The translations under genes and the position numbers were made by a program. Shown here piece by piece: positions 20,093 to 27,325 of a stretch of DNA of 33,152 nucleotides. The notes under the pieces are model-generated. The model saw only the letters and a list, made by a program, of their open reading frames with translations. It ran no database searches and was not told the origin of the DNA. The DNA is from Opitutus sp. GAS368 (GTDB taxonomy: Bacteria; Verrucomicrobiota; Verrucomicrobiia; Opitutales; Opitutaceae): the NCBI GenBank assembly GCA_945874455.1, contig CAMCHO010000031.1, forward strand, positions 1 through 33,152, given 5' to 3'. The first letter of the stretch is position 1. Each line of letters begins with the position of its first letter.

Positions 20093-20470
20093 ATGATCCC
20101 CGGCGAAATTATCGTGGCCGACGACGGCCCGCTCCTTGCGAATCTGCATCTCGCGACCCTCACGCTCGCCGTCGCCAACACCGGCGATCGTCCGATCCAA
20201 GTCGGCTCGCACTACCATTTCTTCGAGACCAACGAAGCCCTCCGCTTCGACCGCGCCGCCGCCCGCGGTTTCCGCCTCAACATCCCCGCCGGCACCGCCG
20301 TTCGCTTCGAAGCCGGCGACACCAAGGAAGTTGAACTCGTCGCCCTCGCCGGCCTCCGCGAGGTCTACGGCCTGAACGCCAAAATCAACGGCCGCCTCGA
20401 TGCCAAACCTGTCGCCCGCCTCGTGAAAGACGGGAAGAAATTGAAGTCCACGCCCCGCTCCCGCTCATGA
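20093..20470 (+). CDS. ureB: Urease subunit beta
   Basis: A 125-residue urease beta subunit. MIPGEIIV at the N-terminus, [18 protein letters not shown] and the C-terminal [18 protein letters not shown] are diagnostic. It is about 20 residues longer than the shortest homologues because of a basic tail ([16 protein letters not shown]). The stop overlaps the ureC start (ATGA at 20467-20470), so the two are translationally coupled. Confidence 0.97.
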
Positions 20471-22305
20471 GCCTCCACCTCTCCCGCCGCCAATACGCCG
20501 AGATGTTCGGTCCCACCGTCGGCGACCGCGTGCGTCTCGCCGACACCGATCTTTTCGTGCAAGTCGAGCGCGACCTCATCGCCGAGGGCGGCGGCTACGG
20601 CAACGAAATCAAATTCGGCGGCGGCAAGGTCATCCGTGACGGCATGGGTCAATCCCCCACCGCGCTCGACAAGGACTGCCTCGATCTCGTTATCACGAAC
20701 GCCCTCATCCTCGATCCTCTCCTCGGTATCATCAAAGCCGATATCGGCATCAAGCACGGCCTCATCGTCGGCATCGGCCACGCCGGTAACCCTGGCATTC
20801 AATCCGGCATTGGCTCCGTTTACGCCGACCCGAAGACGAAAAAGAAAAACGCGATGGTCGTCGGGGCCGCGACCGAAGTCATCGCCGGCGAAGGTCACAT
20901 TGTCACCGCCGGCGGCATCGATACCCACATTCATTTTATCTGCCCGCAGCAAATCGACGAAGCCATCAGCTCTGGCATCACCACGATGCTCGGCGGCGGC
21001 ACTGGTCCCGCCCACGGCACCTTCGCGACAACCTGCACACCAGGAAAGTGGAACCTGCACCGCATGCTGGAAGCCGCCGAAGCGTTCCCGATGAACCTCG
21101 GCTTCCTCGGCAAGGGTAACTGCGGCACCGCCGCCCCGCTGCGCGAGCAAATCCTCGCCGGCGCCATCGGCCTCAAGCTCCACGAAGACTGGGGCACCAC
21201 CCCGGCCGCCATCGACGTCTGCCTCGGCGTCGCCGATGAACTCGACGTCCAAGTCGCGATCCACACCGACACACTCAATGAGTCAGGTTTCGTCGACGAC
21301 TCCATCCGCGCCTTCAAAGGGCGCACCATCCACACCTTTCACTCCGAGGGCGCTGGCGGCGGCCACGCGCCCGACATCATCCGCGTCTGCGGCGAGCCCA
21401 ACGTCCTCCCTTCCTCCACGAATCCCACGCGCCCCTTTACCGTCAACACCATCGACGAGCATCTGGACATGCTCATGGTCTGCCACCACTTGGATTCCAA
21501 GATCCCTGAGGACGTCGCCTTCGCCGAGAGCCGCATCCGCCCCGAGACGATCGCCGCCGAGGACTGCCTCCACGATCTCGGCGCGATCTCGATGATGTCC
21601 TCCGACTCCCAGGCCATGGGCCGTATCGGCGAAGTCATTATCCGCACGTGGCAGACTGCGCACAAGATGAAGACGCAGTTCGGCCCGCTAGCGCCAAGGA
21701 GCACGGACTTCAGGGCACCGTCCGTAGCGCGGGAGTCTTCGAGGGGCGGGCTGAAGTCACGCCCGAGCTCAGATCATTCCGCGGCCGACAATTTTCGCGC
21801 CCTCCGCTACCTCGCGAAATACACGATCAACCCTGCGATCGCCCACGGTATCAGCCATATCGTCGGCTCGGTCTCCGTCGGTAAACTCGCCGACCTCGTT
21901 ATCTTCAAACCCGCCTTGTTCGGCGTAAAACCCGAGACGGTGCTTAAAGGCGGCTTCATCGCCTGGGCCAATATGGGCGATCCCAACGCCTCAATCCCCA
22001 CGCCGCAGCCCACCTTCTACCGCCCGCAATTCGGCGCCCACGGCAAAGCCCTTACGTCCACGAGTATCACCTTCGTCAGTGCAGCCTCGCTGAGAAAAGG
22101 TAACCTCGCTGACCTCGGTCTCGCCCGTCGCCTCGAGCCCGTGCAGCGCTGCCGCCAAGTCGGCAAACGCGACATGGTCTTCAACGACGCGCTCCCGAAA
22201 ATCGAAGTCGATCCGGAGACCTACACGGTCAAAGCCGACGGCCGGATCCTCACCTGCGAACCCGCCAAAGTCCTCCCGATGGCGCAGCGGTATTTTCTAT
22301 TCTGA
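20467..22305 (+). CDS. ureC: Urease subunit alpha, with an in-frame repeat-like insertion
   Basis: The catalytic subunit, which hydrolyses urea to ammonia and carbamate at a two-nickel centre. All ligands are visible: H154 and H156 (THIH), the carbamylated lysine K237 (GLKLHEDWG), H266, H292 and D380 (SSDSQAMGR), plus flap residues C339 and H340 (MVCHHLD). At 612 residues it is about 45 longer than typical UreC (about 567). Two segments explain this. Residues about 113-130 ([18 protein letters not shown]) replace a short loop. Residues 409-440, between KTQFGPL and [17 protein letters not shown], are a low-complexity stretch encoded by palindromic DNA (21691-21786). The frame is kept and the insert follows the last nickel ligand, so the enzyme is probably active. 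Confidence 0.96.
21698..21770. repeat. Palindromic repeat-like insertion inside ureC
   Basis: Within the ureC insertion GACTTCAG (21706-21713) is the inverse of CTGAAGTC (21751-21758), ACGGAC (21703-21708) of GTCCGT (21720-21725), and CGGGC (21747-21751) of GCCCG (21761-21765). The encoded residues have no counterpart in the Klebsiella-type UreC sequence as I recall it. The structure resembles a mobile palindromic element inserted in frame. Confidence 0.55.
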
Positions 22306-22348
22306 GCGGGAACACCCGGCGCCCAGCGTCGAAACCTAAGCGGCGCCG

Positions 22349-22735
22349 TCACCCGCGTGCGATCATCGGCTCGCACGCATAAAGCGCAAAGAGCACGACT
22401 GCCACCACGTCGCACACCGCGGCCGGCGCAAGACCGCGAAACAGGGGTTTACCCCACTGGCCGAGGGTGAGCGCGATCAACACGAGTTTCTCAACGCCGA
22501 CCATCGCCATCACCGGCCCGCGCAAAGCCGGCACCTCCGCCGCCCACATCATCAATCCGCCGCAGACCGCCGCCATCGCTCCCCAGTGCCGGGCAAAAAA
22601 CCGGCCGGTCTCGTCACCGACCGGAAGCTTGAGCAACCGGTTGAGCGCAAACTCTGGGGCGAGCGTGACGATCCCCATACTCGCCGCCAGGAAACCAAAG
22701 ACCCAAAGCAATGCGCGAATATGTTCGTGGATCAT
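22349..22735 (-). CDS. Four-TM hypothetical membrane protein
   Basis: A 128-residue protein I do not recognise. Hydrophobic segments at about 6-27, 49-71, 73-94 and 100-120 predict four transmembrane helices. There are no clear catalytic motifs. The ATG at 22735 overlaps the stop of the upstream flavoprotein gene (ATGA at 22732-22735), so it is translated with it and is the last gene of the three-gene minus-strand unit that separates ureABC from ureEFGD. It is convergent to ureC, 43 bases away. A small membrane subunit or anchor for the neighbouring redox protein is possible, but this rests only on linkage. Confidence 0.7.
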   Translation of the reverse strand: MIHEHIRALLWVFGFLAASMGIVTLAPEFALNRLLKLPVGDETGRFFARHWGAMAAVCGGLMMWAAEVPALRGPVMAMVGVEKLVLIALTLGQWGKPLFRGLAPAAVCDVVAVVLFALYACEPMIARG

Positions 22736-24384
22736 GACAAAGTCGAAACGGGCTTGCTGGAATCGACTTCGGACGGGTTCACCCCACGTCGCGCCGTCGT
22801 CAATTCTGCGAACGGTTTAAACGACGCGGTCAATTGCTGGGTCTGCTCGCGCGAAATCCGCAGCACGGCCACGGGTTCGATTGCCCGCACAGTCGCCGTC
22901 CGCTGGCGATTCTCCAATACAGCGATCTCGCCAAAATGTTCGCCCGGCCCGAGGACCGCGAGCCGCTGCTCTCCGGCCCTACCGTCATTCGCGAGGACTT
23001 CGACGGAGCCCGATTGAATGAGGTACATCACGCGACCCACGTCACCTTGGCGCACGATCGTCTGCCCAGTTTCGTAGAGCTCGCGCGTGACCCCCATGTG
23101 CGGAGCATCGCCACTCACGCTCGTCACGTCGCGACCAAAGAGAGGCACCGTGATCCAATCGAGGAGTGTGCGCACACGCTTGGACCACGTCGGCAGATAG
23201 GCCACCATGCACCCGCGCCAGGTCAACCACGCCAACCAGCCCTTGAGCGGCACGCCCCAAAGCTGCCCCACGGCCTCGCCGAAGCCCAACACGCAGCAAT
23301 CACCCATGCCCGTAAACGCGTAGGGTCTGAGCGTCCTGCCCTGCAAGGTGCGCAGGATATTTCGCCCCAAGGTCGCGCCTCCCTGCATCGCATAGAGGGC
23401 GAGCGGGGGAGCCGTCTCCCCGTTCTTCATCGGCACCGCACCGCAATCGCCAGCCGACCACACATCCGCACGCCCTCCCACCCGCCCAAAGGCGTCGCAC
23501 AGGAGGCGGCCATGCTTGTCGCGCTCAAACGGCATTTGGTCGAGGAGCGGATTCCGCGCCGCGCCCGTGCAGGAGATGATCGTCCGCGTCGCCAATCGTC
23601 GTCCGTCGGACAGGATCGCCTCCGACGGTGTGGCCGAGGCGAGCCGCTGCCCGAGTTCGATCGTGCAGCCGTTCTTGCGCAGCACAGTGGCGGCATACTC
23701 GGACAGCCGCGGGAAGCGCCGGCCGAGCTCGGGCAAGATCCGTTCGCCGGAATGGACGACGGTAATGTGCGTCTCCTCCCGGGTGAGTCCGGGGTATTCC
23801 GTTTTGAGGAGCGAGCGGAGGAATTCCGCCAACTCTGCTGCGACTTCGATGCCGGCGTAGTTGCCGCCTGCGATCACGAAATGCAACAGGCGCCGTCGCT
23901 CTACCGGATCGGGTTCGGCCTCGGCGAACTCCAGCATCGCGAGGAGATGATTCCGCACCCGGACGCAGTCGAAATAATCCTTCAGCCGCAGCGTGTGTTC
24001 GCCGACGCCGCGGTAGCGGGTGAGATCATCGACCGAGCCAAGATTCACGACGAGATGATCGTAACTCAGCGTGAGCGGTGCGCTGTCCAGCGCCCGGTGC
24101 AGGAGCACTTCCTTCTTCGCCACATCGATGCGTTCAATCCCCGCACAGATGAAACGGCCAGGTGCAAAAAGCCGGCGCGCAGGAGAGATGATCTGCCCGG
24201 CCTGAATCTTGCCGGTGAGCATCTCCGGCACGAGGCCGTGAAACGTGTGATAGTTGTGCTGGTCGACGACGATCAGTTCGACGTCTCCGCGCCGCACTGC
24301 GCTGCGCAATTGGCGCACCAACCAGATCGCGACATAACCTCCGCCAAGGACAAGGACGCGAGTGGGAGCAGGGGGAGATTTCAT
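22732..24384 (-). CDS. NDH-2-type flavoprotein fused to a cyclic-nucleotide-binding domain
   Basis: A 550-residue fusion. Residues 1-425 resemble type II NADH dehydrogenases: an FAD Rossmann motif VLVLGGGYVA (10-19, where the third Gly of GxGxxG is Ala), an NAD(P) Rossmann motif IAGGNYAGIEVAAEL (171-185), the second FAD contact WSAGDC (309-314), and a Trp/Arg-rich C-terminal stretch (about 380-418, LPTWSKRVRTLLDW) like the membrane-docking end of NDH-2. Residues about 430-530 are a CNB domain with an intact phosphate-binding cassette, HFGEIAVLENRQRTATV (483-499, Arg495). NDH-2 enzymes pass electrons from NADH to quinone without pumping; the fused domain suggests cyclic-nucleotide control. Both junctions with neighbours are ATGA overlaps. 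The sensor-to-enzyme link is inferred. Confidence 0.85.
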   Translation of the reverse strand: MKSPPAPTRVLVLGGGYVAIWLVRQLRSAVRRGDVELIVVDQHNYHTFHGLVPEMLTGKIQAGQIISPARRLFAPGRFICAGIERIDVAKKEVLLHRALDSAPLTLSYDHLVVNLGSVDDLTRYRGVGEHTLRLKDYFDCVRVRNHLLAMLEFAEAEPDPVERRRLLHFVIAGGNYAGIEVAAELAEFLRSLLKTEYPGLTREETHITVVHSGERILPELGRRFPRLSEYAATVLRKNGCTIELGQRLASATPSEAILSDGRRLATRTIISCTGAARNPLLDQMPFERDKHGRLLCDAFGRVGGRADVWSAGDCGAVPMKNGETAPPLALYAMQGGATLGRNILRTLQGRTLRPYAFTGMGDCCVLGFGEAVGQLWGVPLKGWLAWLTWRGCMVAYLPTWSKRVRTLLDWITVPLFGRDVTSVSGDAPHMGVTRELYETGQTIVRQGDVGRVMYLIQSGSVEVLANDGRAGEQRLAVLGPGEHFGEIAVLENRQRTATVRAIEPVAVLRISREQTQQLTASFKPFAELTTARRGVNPSEVDSSKPVSTLS

Positions 24385-26603
24385 GCGGTGACGACACCCG
24401 CAGCCGGAGTGGCTGGGAGTGGGAATGGATTACGGCTACGATGGAGTGCGAGCACCGCGGCCCGGACATCGGGGTGGCGCAGGAGTATCGTGTGAAAGGT
24501 CTCCCGGTCGAGGGTGAGGAGCCGGGTGTCTTCGAGTGCGACCGCGGTCGCCGCCCGGGGCGCGGTTGAGAGCAGCACCCCTTCTCCGAAGCACGCTCCC
24601 GGGCCGAGGTTCGCGAGGGTCTCGCCCGCACGGCTCACGCGCACGGCACCTTTCTCAATCATGAAAAACAAATCGCCGGTCTGGCCCTCTGCCACGACGA
24701 CTTCCTGCGCCTCATAGCGCTGCGGCACCAGGGCCGCCGCGAGATCGGCCAGCAGTTGATCGGTTGCTCCGTGCAAAAACGGAACCCGGCCAATCAATCG
24801 CCGGCCCAGCACCAGCAAATTACCATCGGTCAGGCGACGACGATGAGCCGCCTGCAAGTGATTCCGGACTGCGGGATATTTTTCCGTGAGGTAGGAAAAT
24901 GAATCCCGCGTGAGTGACAGCAACACGGTTTCCCCTGCAGCCGTGACCGTGGCGCCGCGGGGTTCATCCGTGAGGAGAGCACCTTCGCCGACATAACCCC
25001 CGCGACCAAGTTCGGCGAGCAACTCACCGTCGCGCGTCACGCGGAGATTCCCCGAAGCTATCAAGTAGAACGTGTGGCCAGGGGCGCCTTCTTCGAAGAC
25101 GACCTGGTCGGCCCGATAATTCTCGGTGACGAGGGTGGCGGCGAGGTCGGCGATGAGTTCCTCGCCGGCCTCGGCGAGGAAGAGTACGTGGGTGATCAGA
25201 TCCCGTTTTACCCGCTCTCGAAGTGCATCGGTTCGGCGCGCACCGATGATGGCATTGACGGACCGACCGATCATATCGCCGCGGCTGCCCGAATACTCCG
25301 CGCGGAAGACTTCGTAATAAGCATAGCGCCACACGGGGCGCATATCCTTGTAGAAATGCTCAAAGTCGATTTCACCGCGACCGGACGCCATGCGCGCAAG
25401 ATACCGCTCGGTCTCGACCTGCGGCAGGCCCCATTCGTGCAATAACAGATCCAGCTCCTTGCGCGTCAACACGCCATCACCGTCGAGATCAAGGTGACGG
25501 AAAACCAGCGCAGCCTGATCGCGTTCCGAGGCGGCACCCTCCGTCGCCACGGCCCGCAAGCCGTGGTTGCGCACCGCGCCAATCGTCCAGACGTCGCGCG
25601 CGAATCGCTGCGGGTCGACGTCTCCTTGCACGAGCAACCTCGATGCAAACTCGTCCAACGCCGTCACCGATAAGCCCCAAGGCGCGAGCGCACGGCGGAG
25701 TTCATCGCGGTTCAGCCGGCCATCGCCATCACGGTCGAGCAGGCGGAAAAACTCCAAGGCCCGCGCCGGTTCGTCCGGCCCAGCGGCGCGATCGGCCGCA
25801 AACCCGGAGGGAGCAACACTCTCGCGCGCACGTTCACGCACAAAATCCCAATAGGCCGCCGGCGAGCGCACAAACAATGCGCGGTAAAGCAGCACGTAGC
25901 TCCCGATCGACCCCACCAGTAGCATCAAACCCAGTGAACCGAACAGCGCCGGGATCATCGTCGCTCCGGCCGCCAGAATCGAAATTGTGTATTTCTGCGT
26001 CGTGAAGAGTTTCAGCAGGTCGAAAAGGTAATAATAGACTCGGCACCACACGTAGACGTTGAAGACGAGAAACGTGTTGATCGCCCACATCCGCGACTCG
26101 GGATGCGTTAGCAGCATCATGGCGCAAAATCCATGGGTCACGATGCAGAGGAGATAAGACGGCTCCATGATGGCCTTGCTTCCAAATACGATGCGGGTCT
26201 GGAACAGCGCCGTCGGCACATGAAACCCCAGTGCGGCGATCGCCATGACGCGAGCCGCCGTGGGGGCAAAACTGAAACACGCCATCAGCCCCGCCACCAG
26301 TTCGATGGTGCCCGAGACAATGTGCACCCGCAGAATCCATCGCCGCCAGGGCAGCATCAAAAACTTCGGATGTGCCGGGATCAGGTAATGATAGGCGATG
26401 ACAATCACGTTGGCCAACGTGGACAGCACCACGAGCACCCACGTGTCTACTCCGACCGGCGTCTCGGGCCGGAGCGCGGCGTGGCGGAAAACCGGCACGC
26501 AGAGCAATCCCAGCACGCTATAAAGCACCAACCACCGCAACGGCCGCGCGCCGACGCTTTCAGCCGCCGACAGGGATGACTTGAGAATCATATCAGTGGA
26601 CAT
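24381..26603 (-). CDS. Multi-TM protein with two EF-hands and two cyclic-nucleotide-binding domains
   Basis: A 740-residue protein. Residues about 22-245 contain some six to eight transmembrane helices with several His residues in or near them (H72, H78, H94, H128, H157, H167). Two canonical EF-hand loops follow: DRDGDGRLNRDE (290-301) and DLDGDGVLTRKE (372-383), each with the D-x-D-x-D-G pattern and Glu at position 12. Two CNB domains lie at about 470-590 and 605-722; each cassette keeps its Arg (GEGALLTDEPRGATV, R549; GEGVLLSTAPRAATA, R683). The protein should sit in the inner membrane with cytosolic Ca2+ and cyclic-nucleotide sensors. It is first in the minus-strand unit, divergent to ureE. 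The membrane domain was not recognised; a heme or channel role is open. Confidence 0.85.
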   Translation of the reverse strand: MSTDMILKSSLSAAESVGARPLRWLVLYSVLGLLCVPVFRHAALRPETPVGVDTWVLVVLSTLANVIVIAYHYLIPAHPKFLMLPWRRWILRVHIVSGTIELVAGLMACFSFAPTAARVMAIAALGFHVPTALFQTRIVFGSKAIMEPSYLLCIVTHGFCAMMLLTHPESRMWAINTFLVFNVYVWCRVYYYLFDLLKLFTTQKYTISILAAGATMIPALFGSLGLMLLVGSIGSYVLLYRALFVRSPAAYWDFVRERARESVAPSGFAADRAAGPDEPARALEFFRLLDRDGDGRLNRDELRRALAPWGLSVTALDEFASRLLVQGDVDPQRFARDVWTIGAVRNHGLRAVATEGAASERDQAALVFRHLDLDGDGVLTRKELDLLLHEWGLPQVETERYLARMASGRGEIDFEHFYKDMRPVWRYAYYEVFRAEYSGSRGDMIGRSVNAIIGARRTDALRERVKRDLITHVLFLAEAGEELIADLAATLVTENYRADQVVFEEGAPGHTFYLIASGNLRVTRDGELLAELGRGGYVGEGALLTDEPRGATVTAAGETVLLSLTRDSFSYLTEKYPAVRNHLQAAHRRRLTDGNLLVLGRRLIGRVPFLHGATDQLLADLAAALVPQRYEAQEVVVAEGQTGDLFFMIEKGAVRVSRAGETLANLGPGACFGEGVLLSTAPRAATAVALEDTRLLTLDRETFHTILLRHPDVRAAVLALHRSRNPFPLPATPAAGVVTA

Positions 26604-26860
26604 AAAAATATCCGGTGGGGAGAGAGACGAGGGCAGCCAAATGCAGGACTGCTGGCTAAGTCAACCCCGCCCGAACATTCACGTGCGCCGTTCGCTGTCG
26701 AAACACCTGCCCTCCGCAAGAGACACGTTCGCCGAGACAAGGCCACGTACGCGCCCGATTCACTCGGATTAAAGGCCGCAAAAAACGCCCAACGTTGCCA
26801 TTGAAACAGACGCCCCACTTTAGTGAACTCCGCGCCGATCCGGCCTCCACGTATTTACTC

Positions 26861-27325
26861 GTGCTTCATCTCGTCCAAGCTTCCATCGCTGCTCCCAACG
26901 TTTCCCTCCCCGAAATCGCTTTGCGTGTCGAACGCATGACGCTCGCGAAACGCCTCTGGCGCGGCATCGCCGCAGACGGCACCGAATTCGGCTTCGAACT
27001 CCACGCACCACTCAAACACGGCGACACGTTTTTCCAATCCGCCGCCGCCCGCTACACCGTCCAGCAACACCCCGAGTCCGTCATCGAAGTCGCCCTCGAC
27101 GTCGCACCCTCTGCGGCCGCCGGTATCGGCTGGGCCATCGGCAATCTGCACCTCGAACTTCAATCCGAGCCCACGCGCCTCCTCGCGCCCGACGAACCCG
27201 CCGTGCGGCAATTACTCGATCGTCTGAAAATCTCGTTCACGCCGACGACCGCCATCTTTCGCCCCGGCCGTTTCTCTCGCGGCCAACAACCCACGCATGA
27301 CCTCGGCCCCAGTCACAAACACTGA
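26861..27325 (+). CDS. ureE: Urease accessory protein UreE (nickel chaperone)
   Basis: The frame contains VLHLVQASI, ERMTLAKRLWRGIAADGTEFGF and VGWAIGN-like GIGWAIGNLHLELQ, the UreE N-terminal and metal-binding domain pattern, and ends in a short His tail (GPSHKH). UreE delivers nickel to the UreD-F-G complex. No ATG fits. I prefer the GTG at 26861, which gives 154 residues and an N-terminus like the family; the frame is open further up and TTG at 26795 would give 176 residues. It overlaps ureF by 29 bases. It is separated from ureABC by the three-gene minus-strand unit and must have its own promoter in the 26604-26860 spacer, where nothing convincing is seen. Confidence 0.88.
   Translation: MLHLVQASIAAPNVSLPEIALRVERMTLAKRLWRGIAADGTEFGFELHAPLKHGDTFFQSAAARYTVQQHPESVIEVALDVAPSAAAGIGWAIGNLHLELQSEPTRLLAPDEPAVRQLLDRLKISFTPTTAIFRPGRFSRGQQPTHDLGPSHKH

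Follow-up and report, generated by a model that had tools for sequence, protein, structure and literature searches.

The systems closest to the locus described here couple NAD(P)H-linked flavoproteins to calcium or nucleotide sensing in several distinct ways. Plant NDB enzymes are regulated via EF-hands (the available text of PMC4587368), and EF-hand control is likewise described for NOX5, DUOX and RBOH of the ferric reductase domain (FRD) superfamily, in which cytosolic NAD(P)H, a flavin and a membrane protein come together (the available text of PMC3591440). A CNB protein has also been noted within a redox gene cluster, that of a hydrogenase (PMC13332983). Here we analyse a trio of genes encoding a membrane protein with EF-hands and CNB domains (P0001), an NDH-2-related flavoprotein with a CNB of its own (P0002) and a small hydrophobic protein (P0003). 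Like NDB1 and NDB2, the trio pairs EF-hands with an NDH-2-related flavoprotein; however, the EF-hands of the plant proteins lie inside the enzyme, whereas those of the trio are found in P0001 only and are accompanied by CNB domains. The likeness to NOX5/DUOX/RBOH is one of logic, in that NAD(P)H, flavin, membrane protein and EF-hands recur, but the flavoprotein of the trio is a separate gene product from another superfamily, and CNBs are again added. The hydrogenase cluster shares with the trio a CNB protein among redox genes, but in a hydrogenase context, and the available text of that report states no relation to EF-hands or NDH-2 (PMC13332983).

The NDH-2 enzymes themselves (e.g., S. aureus 5na1 and 4nwz) are matched over nearly their whole length by residues 9-412 of P0002, which has the FAD motif GGGYVA and the A-G-D motif, and whose Glu180 corresponds in the alignment to a 5na1 Glu for which 5na4 has Ser. 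P0002 differs from them in its NAD(P)H-site motif, GGNYAG, and in carrying ALYAM[QK] in place of AQxAxQ; further differences are the CNB at its C-terminus and the two membrane-protein genes to which its gene is coupled. Proteins of NDH-2-CNB(-CBS) form from Opitutaceae, Gemmatirosa and Rhodobacter sp. CZR27 (the last annotated as an FAD-dependent oxidoreductase) show about 30-35% identity over most of P0002. In contrast to the trio, they keep GGG[FY]SG and [AG]QFAxR, mostly carry CBS domains, and occur without P0003 or the membrane domain of P0001. The composition of the trio was not found described in the literature on NDH-2 or FAD oxidoreductases with cyclic nucleotides and on EF-hands and fusions, in a coverage that mostly excluded subscription papers. 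The preliminary description of this DNA knew of no described system of such composition; within the coverage given, the same applies to the trio as a whole, but the novelty is narrower than claimed because the combination of an NDH-2-like domain with a following CNB is widespread and already common.

We favor a reading, to which we give a probability of roughly 45%, in which the trio encodes an inner-membrane assembly where the flavoprotein would pass electrons, or its redox state, to a membrane partner under the control of Ca2+ and cyclic nucleotides.

Organization of the locus

The window, i.e., the whole stretch of 33,152 nucleotides that was analysed, contains a urea-transport cluster (urt), ureABC, the trio, ureEFGD and two ribosomal-protein genes, the names of the urt and ribosomal-protein genes being assigned by reading. 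A Pfam scan places ureC on one flank of the trio and ureE/F/G/D on the other, all on the plus strand. The genes and junctions are as follows:

20467..22305, plus strand: ureC, flank outside the trio (Pfam scan)
22349..22735, minus strand: P0003, open reading frame of 128 aa, third gene of the trio
22732..22735, minus strand: ATGA stop/start overlap of P0002 and P0003 (junction read)
22732..24384, minus strand: P0002, open reading frame of 550 aa, second gene of the trio
24381..24384, minus strand: ATGA stop/start overlap of P0001 and P0002 (junction read)
24381..26603, minus strand: P0001, open reading frame of 740 aa, first gene of the trio
26795..27325, plus strand: ureE, flank outside the trio, divergent from P0001 (Pfam scan)

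Three minus-strand reading frames joined by two ATGA overlaps inside the urease cluster had been proposed earlier, and the coordinates agree exactly. The proposal that they form a coupled unit and are co-conserved is likewise upheld: the order and both overlaps recur at five loci in five genomes of two genera (the window, L006, L021, L023 and L024), with ATGA at 10/10 junctions, the reservations being that the trio is rare and that one P0001 paralogue is solitary.

Conservation and distribution

The trio is a conserved unit, since its order and overlaps persist even in another genus (L021), where identity to the window has fallen to 58% for P0001, 71% for P0002 and 35% for P0003. Comparison of the three genes with L023 and L024 gave dN/dS values of 0.13-0.38 (six gene-by-locus comparisons); for scale, the values against L023 are 0.02 for ureC, 0.28 for ureG and 0.31 for ureF.

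The trio is also rare. A profile of the P0001 membrane domain (A4) recovered seven places in 5/252 genomes of the family and, across the phylum, 1/332 sampled genomes, the window's own. At the order level the window's genome was the only one of 223 to carry whole P0001 at E<=1e-30 or P0003 at E<=1e-5, in samples that did not contain the other known carriers. Single-sequence searches matched 6/200 genomes of the family, including a weak partial match in G260 that was dropped, and 3/387 of the phylum, where two weak matches to the EF region were likewise set aside. Within the window's genus, the A4 profile detects the membrane domain in 4/9 listed genomes; in the genus of G224, one of two genomes has the trio. 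A search of genome contigs with one query sequence returned four loci at 97-99%. On plasmids, the membrane domain had no match at E<=10, and whole P0001 was matched from residue 443 onward only (best 30 of 39 records); of the 76 candidate stretches that the membrane domain picked out on viral contigs, not one was a relative. The spread given here applies to the window's own phylum.

P0002 and P0003 follow P0001 at five of the seven places: the window, L023, L024, L021 and L006, where the first seven P0001 residues are missing at a contig end. The contig of L008 stops at P0001 residue 628, which leaves the neighboring genes outside the sequence; L006 and L008, two contigs from the same MAG, could be strain variants. 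At the remaining place, L022 (G361), a P0001 paralogue with 46% identity is found without the flavoprotein or P0003 on a short 12.2-kb contig of a MAG that is 83% complete, where misbinning is possible. This paralogue suggests that P0001 can stand alone; the genes beside it look, on reading, like those of RND efflux, membrane-fusion and TolC proteins.

P0001 and P0003

Pfam and hydropathy agree with the earlier account of P0001 as a multi-TM protein with two EF-hands and two CNB domains, with Pfam matching cNMP_binding over two stretches (142 bits in all) and EF-hand over two. Its features are:

25869..26546, minus strand: orphan membrane domain (Pfam null, invariant residues, hydropathy)
25680..25763, minus strand: EF-hand 1 (canonical), residues 281-308 approximately, with loop DRDGDGRLNRDE (Pfam)
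25446..25523, minus strand: EF-hand 2 (canonical), residues 361-386 approximately, with loop DLDGDGVLTRKE (Pfam)
24834..25151, minus strand: CNB 1, about residues 485-590, with Glu540 and Arg549 (Pfam, alignment, Foldseek)
24444..24776, minus strand: CNB 2, about residues 610-720, with Glu674 and Arg683 (Pfam, alignment, Foldseek)

The sensory half of the protein is readily recognized. The EF region (about residues 280-425) is calmodulin-like and is matched by calmodulins; it has two canonical 12-residue loops, as had been claimed, together with two degenerate EF positions. By alignment reading, the last loop, which is degenerate in the window lineage, looks canonical in L021 (DRDADGRITFAE) and L022 (DSNGDGMIDFDD), and one Ca2+ site has thus probably been lost in the window lineage. 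In CNB domains the cassette Glu contacts the ribose and the Arg the phosphate of the nucleotide. The three cassettes previously read as intact are indeed so, with E540/R549 and E674/R683 of P0001 and E486/R495 of P0002 invariant in the rows aligned. Nucleotide-cyclase domains (PF00211) are present in 6/6 genomes checked, with two in the window's genome. As a separate observation, one of these two cyclases adjoins another tandem-CNB protein (L002).

The membrane domain (about residues 20-245) is, in contrast, an orphan: across three clades it had no Pfam match at E<=10, and NCBIfam gave nothing above its cut-offs for P0001, P0002 or P0003. Hydropathy and AlphaFold helices point to about eight TM segments, and Lys and Arg cluster at the N-terminus, in loops 2, 4 and 6 and in the C-terminal flank. 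From this pattern a probable 8-TM topology with both ends inside is predicted, under which the EF and CNB domains would be cytoplasmic. Six histidines (His72, 78, 94, 128, 157 and 167), located within TM helices 2-5 or immediately beside them, show no variation among three divergent clades; between residues 20 and 250, 6/7 His are invariant as against 110/231 residues overall, an excess that is suggestive only (hypergeometric 0.046). As judged from the sequence, such a set would fit a heme or metal cofactor.

P0001 does not show the histidine pattern of the FRD/NOX superfamily. In FRD proteins the heme histidines come in pairs, one pair in TM3 and another in TM5. The FRD set includes His-115, 209 and 222 (the available text of PMC3591440). 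In P0001, going by predicted borders, TM1-TM5 carry one His each (41, 72, 94, 128 and 157), and TM6-TM8 none, so that no helix holds such a pair. Structure prediction gave weak models, both for full P0001 (mean pLDDT 64.8, pTM 0.39) and for the membrane domain alone (mean pLDDT 66.4, pTM 0.63). In Foldseek against the PDB, the whole model retrieved CNB proteins (best 50 of 1270 matches), and the membrane domain nothing at E<=0.001. VIA-align related the latter to designed helical proteins and GPCRs with Z up to 6.6; because this possibly reflects just a common helix arrangement, no fold is claimed. An hhalign comparison with DoxX gave probabilities of 0.05% and 0.17% for the membrane domain and P0003, obtained without a positive control and with an alignment assembled from 16 ORFs, of which some were probably wrong picks.

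P0003 is hydrophobic and probably has four TM segments, so that the earlier assignment stands as a probability drawn from hydropathy only. It had no Pfam match at E<=10 in either of two clades, and comparison with the tails of eight NDH-2-CNB relatives gave no similarity; such tails, among the relatives scanned, consist mainly of CBS domains.

These features of P0001 raise an alternative in which it would be a Ca2+/cyclic-nucleotide-gated channel or transporter, with P0002 and P0003 as accessory proteins and P0002 reporting the redox state instead of driving a flow of electrons. Gating is a common role of CNB and EF modules, and the solved relatives of the CNBs include, besides the regulatory domains of PKG and PKA, the SthK channel. 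The conserved polar residues within the membrane domain and the solitary paralogue beside putative efflux genes would also suit a transport function. However, P0001 matches no channel or transporter family and has no confident fold match, and at five loci it is coupled to a flavoprotein. We hold this alternative to be doubtful, if somewhat likelier than those considered below.

P0002 and its NDH-2-CNB relatives

P0002 comprises an NDH-2-related part (about residues 9-420) and a CNB (about residues 433-520, with Glu486 and Arg495); Pfam detects Pyr_redox_2 and a C-terminal cNMP_binding domain (PF00027 at 436-520, 81.3 bits). By phmmer, the former part aligns to solved NDH-2 enzymes (9mqy, E 4.9e-31) as far as residue 412, and Pfam NDH2_C scores 23.4 bits against a cut-off of 27.7. 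The FAD glycine motif is GGGYVA in 4/4 module rows and conforms to the first NDH-2 motif, for which GxGxxA is counted as an allowed variant beside GxGxxG (the available text of PMC5299459). The other two signatures are altered. The second glycine motif, that for NAD(P)H, reads GGNYAG in 4/4 module rows as against GGG[FY]SG in 17/17 readable relatives, the middle Gly of GxGxxG having given way to Asn. At the quinone-motif site the window, L023 and L024 have ALYAMQ and L021 has ALYAMK. In a survey of 1762 NDH-2s, which excluded proteins carrying further fused domains, the motifs AQxAxQ, AQxAxR and APxAxQ made up 62, 15 and 10% (the available text of PMC5299459). P0002 is better described as NDH-2-related than as an NDH-2 member, because two of the defining motifs tested depart from the NDH-2 pattern. 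Of the earlier label of an NDH-2-type flavoprotein with a CNB, the CNB and the NDH-2 relationship are retained and the membership is given up.

The relatives show how far these changes are particular to the module. Matches to P0002 at E<=1e-20 occur in 104/200 genomes of the family, many ending before the CNB, as a plain NDH-2 would. From matches reaching the CNB we compared 16 genome loci and two plasmid loci, a choice that favors CNB carriers and does not take in all such loci. In Pfam, 17/17 relatives (all except L069) have cNMP_binding and 15/17 have CBS, L055 and L060 lacking the latter. The position of the CNB after the NDH-2-like domain is common to P0002 and these proteins; P0002 has no CBS match, and its chain stops about 30 residues past the CNB. 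The cassette Arg is absent from 4/18 relatives (L066, L067, L071 and L072). None of the 18 loci, two of them shortened by contig ends, has an ORF of at least 80 aa with a match (E<=0.01) to P0003 or to the membrane domain of P0001. At the quinone-motif site, eight relatives have AQFAxR and nine GQFAER; the remaining one, L069, has AIYAMM and is truncated, its N-terminal half being missing, so that its second glycine motif is unreadable. In a tree, a branch with 99/99 support separates the four module flavoproteins from the other sequences, although the program flags long branches.

Where the NAD(P)H-site strand ends, the module clade and 16/18 relatives have His, L055 and 5na1 have Glu, and L069 has Val. 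We take this to be the same position as the acidic specificity residue of the plant enzymes. In those enzymes, an acidic residue in the NAD(P)H motif affects the use of NADH versus NADPH (the available text of PMC5877776), and the use of NADPH by P0002 is hence possible. On the other hand, GGNYAG could mean poor or absent use of NAD(P)H.

The trio might instead be an ordinary messenger-regulated NAD(P)H:quinone oxidoreductase, anchored and regulated by P0001 and P0003 as a split analogue of the plant NDB enzymes. The overall NDH-2 similarity of P0002 speaks for this, as do the EF-hand regulation of the plant enzymes (the available text of PMC4587368) and the last Gln of the quinone motif, which is retained in the window, L023 and L024. 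Nevertheless, the first Gln of the motif is gone throughout the clade, the last is Lys in L021, and the Asn in the second glycine motif also disagrees with an ordinary enzyme. We accordingly consider this explanation unlikely. The NADH:quinone activity foreseen in the preliminary description is not borne out by the two altered motifs of the clade, and for P0002 such activity appears doubtful.

Position at the urease genes

Comparison with related genomes indicates that the trio is an insertion at the urease locus, because ureE adjoins ureC in 5/5 same-genus loci without the trio (L085-L089). In one of these, L085, the alignment to the window stops at 22310 and resumes at 26902, with 59 bp in place of the 4591 bp of the window; the insert contains the three trio genes, none of them read as mobile. 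At L021 other genes separate ureC from the trio, which is found on the strand of ureC at a distance of about 4.3 kb on its 3' side, whereas in the window it is on the strand opposite to ureC; no ureE, F, G or D was detected within 31 kb at L021 (E<=1e-6, at least 30% identity). That the trio is close to ureC in two genera points to a common history. A role in controlling or serving urease in response to urea or ammonia metabolism, for which this proximity could be cited, is poorly supported and very improbable: differing strand and spacing and the existence of genomes without the trio argue against a required urease function, and no urease gene is present on the contig that carries the L022 paralogue. 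The place between the urease genes is a site of insertion, and any functional link to urease would be hypothetical.

Proposed function and significance

The favored reading, an inner-membrane assembly under the control of two messengers, may be set out as follows. P0002 would sit at the cytoplasmic face and carry electrons from NAD(P)H to FAD, with P0001 and P0003 together serving as its membrane partner. P0002 lacks the quinone signature retained by its relatives; the electron acceptor would hence more likely be found in P0001, with its six invariant histidines, as a cofactor or site, than be a quinone bound directly. Binding of Ca2+ to the EF-hands and of a cyclic nucleotide to the three CNBs, all of them predicted to be cytoplasmic, would then switch the assembly. 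In favor of this reading are the recurrence of the trio at five loci, the intact cassettes, the invariant histidines, the predicted topology, the alignment of P0002 to NDH-2 enzymes, the replaced quinone motif, the well-supported branch of the module flavoproteins and the cyclase domains of the genomes checked. Against it weigh the weak structure models, the altered NAD(P)H motif, the solitary L022 paralogue, the rarity of the trio and the degenerate last EF loop of the window lineage. The fully specified version, in which a quinone-free, NDH-2-derived flavoprotein feeds a cofactor-bearing 8-TM protein and the two messengers set the rate of NAD(P)H oxidation, is a tentative proposal that we regard as rather less than probable.

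The trio is real, conserved and unusual, and its composition would surprise a specialist. Plants are known to control NDH-2-type enzymes through Ca2+, and eukaryotes to have EF-hand oxidases; the trio, a bacterial unit combining apparent Ca2+ and cyclic-nucleotide sensing with an NDH-2-related enzyme, would be a tractable model for second-messenger control of membrane redox chemistry. P0001 stands for a membrane family, so far uncharacterised, in which a set of histidines is conserved, and P0002 for a natural case of a replaced quinone motif, which makes the idea of the partner as acceptor directly testable. If true, the proposed route of electrons would amount to a previously unrecognised kind of bacterial transmembrane electron-transfer system.

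Relatives of the module proteins

Single-chain proteins joining an NDH-2-like part to a CNB domain, and usually to CBS domains, form a broad family (L056-L072) whose hosts are Opitutaceae and Gemmatirosa. The P0002 relative closest to the flavoproteins of the trio-carrying loci is encoded at L069:4722-5999 (genome G114), with 46% over residues 205-527; its N-terminal half is missing, and the gene appears to be truncated. Among the 18 relatives aligned with these flavoproteins, the phosphate-binding arginine of the CNB cassette is gone from four.

A paralogue of P0001, the 740-residue membrane protein, stands alone in genome G361 (L022:3405-5675), where the neighboring genes appear to encode TolC, membrane-fusion and RND efflux proteins; no gene for the flavoprotein or for P0003 was found on its contig. 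Elsewhere in the window's own genome (L002; G000:C36:20022-23969), a nucleotide-cyclase gene adjoins a gene for a 692-residue tandem-CNB protein.

ureC and the site 3' of it

The ureC gene of the window has about 21 extra codons, in frame, at 21682-21760. The DNA of this insert, within which short inverted repeats are seen, is 100% and 93% identical in the trio carriers L023 and L024, respectively. Judged from coordinates, ureC is shorter by 21 codons in the five trio-free loci of the same genus, one of which (L085), when aligned to the window, shows a gap at the position of the insert. The site 3' of ureC may be insertion-prone, because in genome G135, too, ureC and ureE are apart, with about 7 kb of other sequence between them (L091:2939-10286).
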